A DNA stretch of 64,000 nt, taken from Fimbriimonadaceae bacterium. Lineage in GTDB: Bacteria; Armatimonadota; Fimbriimonadia; Fimbriimonadales; Fimbriimonadaceae. The position numbers were made by a program, and so were the translations under genes. The stretch is taken from positions 466,605-530,604 of the forward strand of contig JAHBTE010000001.1 of the NCBI GenBank assembly GCA_019638675.1, given 5' to 3'. Below the pieces are notes generated by a model. The model did no database searches. It was not told where the DNA came from and saw only the letters and a program-made list of their open reading frames with translations. Shown here in pieces: positions 32,740-35,499 of the stretch (its first letter is position 1; each line of letters begins with the position of its first letter).

Positions 32740-33309
32740 GTGGCAATCGATACAAGTGATTTCAAAACCGGCATTGCGATCTACATGGATGGAGAGGTCT
32801 ATCAGATCATTGATTTTCAACATGTCAAGCCAGGAAAAGGGCCAGCATTTGTTCGTACAAAGCTGCGAAAGCTAAAAACTGGCGCAACCTTAGAAAAAAC
32901 GTTCCGAAGCGGCGAGAAATTCGACGATGCCTTTATGGAAAAGATTAATTACCAATATCTTTACCGTCAAGGCGACGAACTAATCCTCATGGATCTGGAC
33001 TCTTACGAACAGATTCCTGTGAAAGAAGATGTTTTTGGCGAAGGAGCCAAATTCCTTAAAGAAGAAATGGAAGTCGTTGCACTTCGAGTTGGAAACGAAA
33101 TGATGGGCTACGACGTTCCTCAATTTGTAGAACTTGAAGTTGTGCAAACAGATCCTTCATTCAAAGGCGACACAGTAACGGGTGGAAGTGGAAAACCTGC
33201 AACATTGGAGACAGGTGCAATCATTAACGTTCCGTTCTTTGTCAACGAAGGTGATGTGGTTAAAGTAGATACGCGTAGCCGGGAATACTTGGAACGCGTC
33301 AAAAAATAA
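32740..33309 (+). CDS. efp: Elongation factor P
   Basis: Relieves ribosome stalling at polyproline stretches. The 189-aa protein has the three beta-barrel domains of EF-P. The modification-loop lysine is Lys33 in VKPGKGPAFVRTKL. The C-terminal domain contains VTGGSGKPATLETGAIINVPFFV. The start is GTG, with GGGA 6 bases upstream. No epmA/epmB or earP modification gene is in the window. A cysteine-rich membrane protein gene follows 15 bp later. Confidence 0.96.
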   Translation: MAIDTSDFKTGIAIYMDGEVYQIIDFQHVKPGKGPAFVRTKLRKLKTGATLEKTFRSGEKFDDAFMEKINYQYLYRQGDELILMDLDSYEQIPVKEDVFGEGAKFLKEEMEVVALRVGNEMMGYDVPQFVELEVVQTDPSFKGDTVTGGSGKPATLETGAIINVPFFVNEGDVVKVDTRSREYLERVKK

Positions 33310-33324
33310 AACGGGCAATTATTT

Positions 33325-34428
33325 ATGGGGCGTCGCGATCCAAATGAGCTAAGAGTCAACAATTACCTCAACGAAGCTGTAACCAACGTTTTCGATTCAA
33401 TAGGCAAAGCGTTGTGTTATGGAGGTGGAGGAATTGCGGCTGTTGGCATTCTGATGTTGCTGTATCACTTCTTTGGTTCGGCAGGCGCGGATACCGCTCA
33501 AATTGAAGCAGCCTTAAAGTATCAGGATTACTTCCGACAGATGGCTTTGTGGGGATTCCTCGCGACTTCAATCGGATCAGCCTGGCTATTTTGGGGTGAG
33601 GAAGTCAGCGGGCCAATTCTCCTTATCGTCGGATTGCTTTTAGCTCTTATGACTTGGTGGGTTCCCTTAATCGCCCCTAACCAGGCAAACGAACTTCAAG
33701 CGAACGCACTTCAATATCTGGCAACTGCTGGTTATCCCGGCGTAATCGTCGGTTTTATCCTCATCATTGCCGATGTAGTTACGAGGTCGAAAATCCGCTT
33801 AAAAGAAGGGGCAAAAGCCGAGCAAATGAAATACGGCAAGGGAATGCGCGAGGAACGCGATACCCGAAACGTTTTCTTTGGTAAGTGCTGGCAACTCCCA
33901 TACTGCCGAAAATTTGTTCGGGAACGCTGCCCGATCTACCATGCCAAACGAACCTGCTGGAAAGAGCGGGTTGGCTGTATGTGCGAAGAAGGCGTCATCA
34001 AAACGGCCATGGAGGGCGGGCCAATATCGAAGGATTTACTTGCCGCTTCAAAATTCATTCCAAAGAATCACACACTCAGTGCGGCGGCCAAGGCTGAACG
34101 ATGCCGTCAATGTGTCATCTATAACGAACATCAAAAGCATAAATATCAACTGTTCATGCCAATCGCATTCGTCTCCGTTGTTGCGATTTATATAACGATG
34201 CGCCCTGTACTCGCGGAAGGAATTCAGAGTGCCCTCAGCGGTATTGACAAAATCTACACGTCAGCCGCTCTTTCCGGGAATGCAAATGCAAGCGAAGCGG
34301 CAAAAGCAACATCGGTGGATGGCGGAGCAATTGCCTACAACGAAATCATTCTTTTTGTACTTGCCCTCGTAGCGCTTGCCTACGCAATCAAGTTCATCGA
34401 ATATTTGGTCTGGAAGCTCAAGATCTAA
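33325..34428 (+). CDS. Membrane protein with cysteine-rich two-CW-like domain
   Basis: Unrecognised 367-aa membrane protein. Three hydrophobic segments near the N-terminus (about 33-50, 73-90, 97-116), a fourth at 136-152, a soluble domain of about 120 residues, and two C-terminal segments (about 276-292, 340-360). The soluble part has eight cysteines: Cys188, 194, 202, 211, 218, 220, 260 and 263, arranged as CW-x4-C-x7-CP-x7-CW-x5-CMC plus a later CRQC. The paired CW and CP spacing resembles the two-CW cysteine domains of some bacterial signalling proteins and could hold zinc or an Fe-S cluster. It lies 15 bp after efp and 6 bp before the RtcA homologue, so it is probably co-transcribed. Confidence 0.65.
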   Translation: MGRRDPNELRVNNYLNEAVTNVFDSIGKALCYGGGGIAAVGILMLLYHFFGSAGADTAQIEAALKYQDYFRQMALWGFLATSIGSAWLFWGEEVSGPILLIVGLLLALMTWWVPLIAPNQANELQANALQYLATAGYPGVIVGFILIIADVVTRSKIRLKEGAKAEQMKYGKGMREERDTRNVFFGKCWQLPYCRKFVRERCPIYHAKRTCWKERVGCMCEEGVIKTAMEGGPISKDLLAASKFIPKNHTLSAAAKAERCRQCVIYNEHQKHKYQLFMPIAFVSVVAIYITMRPVLAEGIQSALSGIDKIYTSAALSGNANASEAAKATSVDGGAIAYNEIILFVLALVALAYAIKFIEYLVWKLKI

Positions 34429-34434
34429 ACGCCT

Positions 34435-35499
34435 ATGCCCAAAGCGGCGGAAGAAATTGTTACATTAAACGGAAGCCACGGTGAAGGCGGTGGTGCCCTT
34501 CTCAGAACTGCACTCTGCATGAGTGCGTTGACCCAAAAACCCGTGGTCATTCACTCTGTACGCGGGGCGATGCGCAAACCAGGGCTATCTCATGAAGACT
34601 TTGCTTTGCTTTCTGCTTTAGCGATCAGCTGCAACGCCCGGTTAGAAGGGGATGACGTCGGCTCCCGCAAACTCGCGTTTGTACCTCAGCAATTACCTAA
34701 GGCGATCAAGTTCGACTTCGACATCACGCGTATTGGCCCAGGAAAATCTCCCGGAAACACCCTTGTGGTTGCTCACTCTCTGGCGGCATTGCTTTCACGA
34801 ACAGGTGCCTATTCCAACGTGCATTTGTTTGGCGAAACGCACAATAACAACACGCTGAATTTTGACGCTTTTGAACTCGCGACTTGTCGTGCCCACCTTG
34901 CTCAAGGGATCGGAATTTATCCGCACCTCACCTCGGCGGGTTTCGGATTTGCTAATCGAGGTGAACTCGTAGTAGAGTACGAACCTTCTGCAACAAACCC
35001 AATTGAGTGGCAGAGCAGAGGCGGAACCGTCCGGTCTGGTGCTCGGGTAACCGCTGTAGAGCTTCATTCGCGACTCATCAACGATGCCGCAACCGCCGCG
35101 CTCAAAAAACTTCAAGAAGCTGGGCTGGGCGACGATCTGGAACTCATCGAAATTTCTGGGCCAGAACCAGGTCTCTCGGTTACCTTTCACACTCAATTTG
35201 AGCGAGGGTTTGCTTCTTCTTCAGCTTGTTTGCCCAAAGGAGGAAAGCCGTTCGAAACCGTTCACCGAGCTTGGGAAGAGTTTCACGCTTTTCTCGGCAC
35301 CAGCGCAACGGTTGATCCGTTTTTGGCCGATCAACTGCTCCTTACCGCAGCGTTTGCCGAAGGCAAAACCACCTACACCACCAGCGTGATCACGCGGCGG
35401 CTTCAGACCATCGCATGGGTGATTAAGCAGTTTCTTCCGATTGCCATCACCATTAAGGGCACAGAAGGAAGTTCTGGAACCATCACCGTGCAAAGATAA
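34435..35499 (+). CDS. rtcA: RNA 3'-terminal phosphate cyclase homologue, catalytic residues replaced
   Basis: A 354-aa protein with the RtcA/Rcl1 fold: GSHGEGGGALLRTALCMSAL near residue 13, VRGAMRKPGLSH near 42, and VDPFLADQLLLTAAFAEG near 293. Authentic cyclases convert RNA 3'-phosphates to 2',3'-cyclic ends through a His-AMP intermediate. The nucleophilic His lies in a C-H-L-x-T-N motif close to the C-terminus. Here that stretch reads TRRLQTIAW, with Arg322 at the His position. The conserved Gln of the GLRPQHL motif is also replaced (GLSHEDF). The protein may therefore bind RNA without cyclising it, like eukaryotic Rcl1. No rtcB or rtcR is adjacent. Confidence 0.85.
   Translation: MPKAAEEIVTLNGSHGEGGGALLRTALCMSALTQKPVVIHSVRGAMRKPGLSHEDFALLSALAISCNARLEGDDVGSRKLAFVPQQLPKAIKFDFDITRIGPGKSPGNTLVVAHSLAALLSRTGAYSNVHLFGETHNNNTLNFDAFELATCRAHLAQGIGIYPHLTSAGFGFANRGELVVEYEPSATNPIEWQSRGGTVRSGARVTAVELHSRLINDAATAALKKLQEAGLGDDLELIEISGPEPGLSVTFHTQFERGFASSSACLPKGGKPFETVHRAWEEFHAFLGTSATVDPFLADQLLLTAAFAEGKTTYTTSVITRRLQTIAWVIKQFLPIAITIKGTEGSSGTITVQR

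Follow-up and report, generated by a model that had tools for sequence, protein, structure and literature searches.

The gene at positions 34435–35499 of the window (the whole stretch of Fimbriimonadaceae DNA that was analysed, 64,000 nucleotides long) raises the question of whether a bacterial descendant of the RNA 3′-phosphate cyclase RtcA has lost its catalytic histidine and, if so, what its protein now does. Three genes of the window bear on this:

32740–33309, + strand: efp, elongation factor P (Pfam/NCBIfam).
33325–34428, + strand: a Cys-rich membrane protein of 367 aa, with no Pfam or NCBIfam family, directly 5′ of the pseudo-cyclase gene.
34435–35499, + strand: a pseudo-RNA 3′-phosphate cyclase of 354 aa (RtcA fold, without the catalytic His; Pfam RTC, alignment and model).

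The Pfam RTC profile (PF01137) matches the 354-aa protein with 149.5 bits against a cut-off of 27, which places it in the RTC family. The three NCBIfam RtcA models that it matches all score it below their cut-offs: TIGR03399 with 172.4 bits (cut-off 250.05), NF003246 with 171.9 (352) and NF003247 with 83.4 (333). It is the only RTC gene in the window's genome; RtcB is encoded at another place, not adjoining it, and a search of this genome for archease found no match. The gene had been described as placed after efp. Elongation factor P is indeed encoded upstream, but not directly, as the membrane protein gene lies between the two and the pseudo-cyclase starts 6 nt after it.

In PMC6277466, His309 of E. 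coli RtcA is given as the attacker of the ATP α-phosphate. A phmmer search against solved structures aligned ITRRLQT of the window protein to ITNHLKT of P. horikoshii RtcA, which puts Arg322 at the His, and a MAFFT alignment of 115 sequences again set Arg322 opposite His309 of the E. coli enzyme. The original prediction, that Arg occupies the nucleophile site and that the conserved Gln of the GLRPQHL motif is changed while Glu17 and Arg24 remain, is thus borne out, the Gln being Gln51, replaced by Glu54. The changes go further than it had claimed: His52 is replaced by Asp55, Arg43 by Met46 and Gln18 by Ala21.

To see how far this pattern extends, 291 genomes of the phylum were searched, and RTC was found in 170. 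The matches fall mostly into two score classes, one of roughly 200–285 bits (canonical) and one of roughly 115–175 bits (divergent), the divergent class coming mostly from the window's family (f1, 85 genomes) and a sister family (f2, 8 genomes). We fetched 67 divergent and 81 canonical loci, leaving out some weak or partial canonical matches, and a profile search covered the 27 f1 and f2 genomes that were left; two further loci from the profile search were repeats of genomes already counted, with identical protein letters. The clade alignment has 68 rows (61 f1 and 7 f2) and the canonical comparison 47. Arg stands at the His position in 81 of the 85 f1 genomes (all 61 aligned rows and 20 further genomes), the exceptions being G125 and G147, where the copy ends before the site, and G133 and G134, where a very diverged copy has Ser. 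All eight f2 genomes have Thr. The site is covered by 77 of the 81 canonical-class loci, and it is His in 76 of them (L195 read by eye) and Asn in one (L108 of genome G236). This survey of the position across Armatimonadota, proposed as a check, upholds the notion of a bacterial pseudo-cyclase and indicates, as far as alignments can, that it is fixed across its family. The pseudo-cyclase is present in nearly all f1 genomes and mostly without a second, His-bearing RtcA, such a copy being found in four of the 85 f1 genomes (G080, G095, G132, G155) and in two of f2 (G067, G071). A contig scan with patterns from the window protein, which reaches near relatives only, gave six loci, all from Fimbriimonadaceae, Fimbriimonas or Armatimonadetes.

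Some canonical-class sequences are unusual in their own right. The RTC at L108:4015–4719 (− strand, genome G236) has Ser at the Gln51 position as well as Asn at the His position, and its matches to the E. coli protein cover just two stretches, the middle apparently missing; it may represent an independent loss or a copy in decay. The His-bearing RtcA of L179, L186 and L191 (genomes G195, G192 and G196; families f21 and f22) have Arg or Gln aligned to Glu14, which may be an alignment shift or a true change of a metal ligand.

The positions of the window protein that matter in what follows, with their state in the clade, are:

34483–34485, + strand: Glu17, E. coli RtcA Glu14; retained in 68/68 aligned clade members.
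34504–34506, + strand: Arg24, E. coli Arg21; Arg in 66 and Lys in 2 of 68.
34561–34563, + strand: Arg43, E. coli Arg40; retained in 68/68.
34570–34572, + strand: Met46, E. coli Arg43; Thr, Met, Leu, Ser or Lys in the clade, Arg in 46/47 canonical rows.
34594–34599, + strand: Glu54-Asp55, E. coli Gln51-His52; residue 54 covaries with residue 322.
34981–34989, + strand: Glu183-Pro184-Ser185 (EPS); Glu and Pro in 68/68, Ser in 62/68, present also in the very diverged G133 and G134 copies.
35398–35400, + strand: Arg322, with codon CGG and the frame open; opposite the nucleophile His309 in the alignments.
35416–35496, + strand: C-terminal element WVIKQFLPIAITIKGTEG..TITVQR; well conserved across clade members, and the copies of G133 and G134 have it in recognisable form.

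Gene decay, or an artefact of assembly or frameshift, would be a trivial reason for the missing His, and split copies do occur in some draft genomes (G087, G110, G148). NG86 estimates of dN/dS were tried for ten pairs and could be computed for seven, with values of 0.014–0.16. The window gene and that of its nearest relative, L075, gave 0.014 (dS 0.91), L044 and L045 gave 0.037 (dS 0.41), and three wider pairs gave 0.13–0.16 (dS 1.1–2.0); the values for L093 against L095 (0.017) and for the window against L044 (0.110) come from pairs with dS >2, near saturation. The gene is under purifying selection. Together with the Arg shared by so many f1 genomes, this contradicts decay or a frameshift, to which we assign a negligible probability.

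Another alternative is that the protein is still an active cyclase, with another nucleophile or a non-covalent route. The fold and several residues of the phosphate pocket are retained, and two residues have become frequent in the clade. His15, which sits in the GEGG loop two residues ahead of Glu17, occurs in 47 of the 68 rows (41/61 f1, 6/7 f2), and Lys331 in 60 (53/61 f1, 7/7 f2) but in only one of the 47 canonical rows. However, neither stands at the site of the lost nucleophile. Rows without His15 mostly have Tyr there. His15 may lie near the pocket yet away from the nucleophile position; it is the nearest candidate for the displaced His that would have overturned the original reading, and it is not at that site. 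Lys331 is the only Lys column with at least 55 of 68 members, but its position too differs from that of the nucleophile, and it is Arg in the other eight rows, all f1. No compensating His or Cys column conserved in at least 55 of the 68 clade members was found. Moreover, the residues equivalent to Arg43, Gln51, His52 and His309 of RtcA are all altered together. With both the nucleophile and its pocket partners gone, the RtcA reaction becomes very unlikely. We regard an active cyclase as a very improbable account, and the protein is, judging from these alignments, very probably without cyclising ability by the RtcA route.

The pocket does not look simply worn away. At E. coli positions 51 and 309 the pair is Gln-His in 45 of 47 canonical rows, Glu-Arg in all 61 f1 rows and Val, Met or Ile with Thr in all seven f2 rows. 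Because the pair is charged in f1 and uncharged in f2, residues 54 and 322 would seem to touch, and the pocket to have been reshaped rather than merely damaged. Nine pocket positions picked by hand have a mean entropy of 0.30 in f1, compared with 1.80 for all positions, and none of 10,000 random column sets was as low; Glu17, Arg43, Glu54 and Arg322 are invariant in the 61 f1 rows. Such conservation, which counts against the explanation preferred below, would also be expected if the rebuilt pocket (Glu54, Asp55, Arg322) catalysed a different reaction on RNA ends or nucleotides, for example hydrolysis of a cyclic phosphate. A changed enzyme of this kind is the main rival to a non-catalytic factor, but we judge it improbable. 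Family f2 lacks both Glu54 and Arg322, and the open frames of G133 and G134 are without most of the pocket; there is therefore no single new catalytic set for the whole clade.

The G133 and G134 copies (L213:4550–5590 and L214:4547–5590, both − strand) are extremely diverged pseudo-cyclases from two f1 genomes of 1.5 Mb. Their identity is about 21–23% in the best matching stretch, and the GEGG motif is absent. Most pocket residues are gone, while the EPS motif and the C-terminal element remain, and this pattern would favour a binding surface over chemistry as the thing preserved. A search of the two genomes for the Cys-rich membrane protein found no match.

An AlphaFold model of the window protein, built with 55 aligned sequences, has a mean pLDDT of 96.7 and a pTM of 0.93. 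Its closest structures are RtcA of P. horikoshii (4o89, Z 45.3, 338 residues, 1.5 Å) and of E. coli (Z 40.7), followed at a lower level by Rcl1 (best Z 34.2, to 4clq) and then by EPSP synthases (Z about 14). A branch with support 100 sets the 68 divergent sequences apart in a 114-row tree; their neighbours are 14 rows of His-bearing RtcA from the phylum, those of the sister family f3 among them. A careful tree of 41 rows again gives one divergent clade, with the G133 and G134 copies inside it. Within what trees and alignments can say, the clade-wide loss of the His is real and arose once, from a bacterial RtcA.

Resemblance to Rcl1, the non-cyclising eukaryotic paralogue, had been proposed for this protein; a further reading is a bacterial orthologue of Rcl1, by descent or transfer. 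The fold is held in common, the nucleophilic His is lost in Rcl1 too, and both have an acidic residue at the His52 position (Asp here, Glu in human Rcl1). But a close resemblance does not hold up at the level of sequence or structure: the clade profile scores 205.3 bits against E. coli RtcA and 44.3 against the best Rcl1, the structural scores rank in the same order, and Glu14 is kept throughout the clade alignment. Rcl1 is not known to have the Glu of the GEGG motif, and Rcl1 alignments to the clade profile start only at profile position 18 or later, after the Glu14 motif. In the 41-row tree human RCL1 stands beside archaeal RtcA, and when it is constrained to join the divergent clade the likelihood falls by 9.1, a weak rejection (p-AU 0.04; Rcl1 is represented by a single fragment whose branch is long). 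We consider orthology with Rcl1 very unlikely, and the trees lend weak support to a loss of the His independent of that in Rcl1.

The surroundings of the gene give some hints of its role. The order efp, membrane protein, pseudo-cyclase is conserved in f1: of the 67 divergent loci, 56 have the membrane protein gene immediately 5′ of the pseudo-cyclase (56/60 f1, 0/7 f2) and 52 have efp. With starts taken mechanically, the upstream stop overlaps the first start codon by 1 nt in 13 of the 56 distinct loci, and in most of the others the pseudo-cyclase starts within about 10 nt of the upstream stop. These overlaps and short gaps fit co-transcription of the two genes, which is probable. In f2 the pseudo-cyclase follows corC in all seven loci, in an operon-like row that also holds ybeY and a diacylglycerol kinase gene in six and an HD protein gene in five (the L043 contig is short; the families were confirmed for L046). 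Elsewhere it precedes the gene for ribosomal protein L1 (G083) or for a tryptophan/tyrosine-type tRNA synthetase (G133), adjoins ftsZ (L060 and L116, confirmed for L116) or lies near cytidylate kinase (G134). Of the six placements, four have a bearing on translation or rRNA and two (ftsZ and G134) do not, in a grouping made post hoc and without a base rate. By contrast, a His-bearing RTC of f3 adjoins archease (L098), a helper of RtcB.

A replacement of Era by the pseudo-cyclase in the ybeY operon of f2 was considered and rejected. Seven of the eight f2 genomes match era strongly, with E values of about 1e-68 or better, and the eighth, G070, a 73% complete draft, gave only weaker GTPase matches. 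All 113 genomes of the order appear in the era search, but part of them solely by weaker GTPase matches of this kind.

The membrane protein of positions 33325–34428 (+ strand) is itself of interest for its highly conserved Cys-rich core, GKCWQLPYCRKFVRERCPIYH..RTCWKERVGCMCEE...ERCRQCVIYNEHQKHKY. It is a marker of the phylum, present in 271 of the 291 genomes searched, and of 17 loci sampled beyond the usual triplet, 15 have it after efp in the same direction. Possibly it binds a metal or an Fe-S cluster. Its model is of middling quality (pLDDT 79.5, pTM 0.49), and the best Foldseek match had an E value of 0.91. In three genomes of genus g14 (G112, G114 and G115; L228 and L229 for two of them) a single TAG lies within the match, so that the protein may be interrupted there or decoded in another way. 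The pseudo-cyclase of G112 and G115 is relocated next to ftsZ. Since the pair of efp and the membrane protein is widespread in the phylum without the pseudo-cyclase, the latter may be a chance joiner of the pair.

Taken together, we think it likely that the protein is a catalytically dead descendant of a bacterial RtcA, now a non-catalytic factor. The fold, part of the pocket and the C-terminal element are retained under selection, which points to a binding function. In the sequences the AMP-accepting His is replaced clade-wide together with its pocket partners, with the predicted fold and purifying selection remaining; no covalent enzyme-AMP would then form, and RNA 3′-phosphates could not be cyclised by the RtcA route. 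With less certainty, the remodelled pocket (Glu17, Arg24, Arg43, Glu54, Asp55, Arg322) or the C-terminal element may bind a nucleotide, the end of an RNA or another protein. The pseudo-cyclase might then act in binding or assembly, with translation or rRNA the most likely setting, much as Rcl1 does in eukaryotes but arrived at independently. A different, non-cyclising job is on this comparative evidence probable; a role in translation is suggested, perhaps, by the proximity to efp or, elsewhere, to ybeY, L1 or a tRNA synthetase gene. Besides the pocket conservation, the new frequent residues His15 and Lys331 and the six f1 and f2 genomes with an extra His-bearing copy count against this explanation. 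A bolder form of it, in which the Fimbriimonadales evolved their own Rcl1 independently of eukaryotes, by turning an RNA cyclase into a non-catalytic factor for the assembly of ribosomes or of the translation machinery, linked with efp in f1 and with the rRNA maturation gene ybeY in f2, is a speculation that we find rather doubtful. In the open-licence literature we found nothing on a phosphate cyclase in Fimbriimonas, on RNA cyclase pseudoenzymes or on elongation factor P in Fimbriimonadales. The clade would be a second group without the cyclase His beside Rcl1, and a bacterial one, which offers a simpler system in which to ask what the fold does after catalysis.

Among known systems, RtcA (E. 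coli 1qmh/3tut, P. horikoshii 4o89) shares with the pseudo-cyclase the whole fold, the equivalents of Glu14, Arg21 and Arg40 and, in most clade members, those of Asp287 and Gln288. It differs in having His309, Gln51, His52, Arg43 and Gln18, all absent from the clade protein, which falls below the NCBIfam RtcA cut-offs and whose gene is not next to rtcB in the window's genome. Rcl1 of the small-subunit processome (4clq, 3pqv, 7mq8) likewise has a cyclase fold without the nucleophile, the acidic residue at the His52 position and possibly a binding role, but it is distant in sequence and in the tree, and the pseudo-cyclase is bacterial and retains a GEGG motif with Glu14. PMC4914098 describes Rcl1 as a cyclase-like protein needed for ribosome assembly, with a disputed catalytic role: mutation of its RDK motif breaks binding to Bms1, and the nuclease activity reported for it was not confirmed to be specific. 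In the RtcAB-RtcR system, according to PMC9650030, the CARF domain of RtcR forms complexes with RtcAB that do not need RtcAB catalytic activity. The RtcA of that system is the cyclase of the rtcAB genes, unlike the pseudo-cyclase, which has lost the His; what the system shows, within that account, is that the same fold can act by binding.
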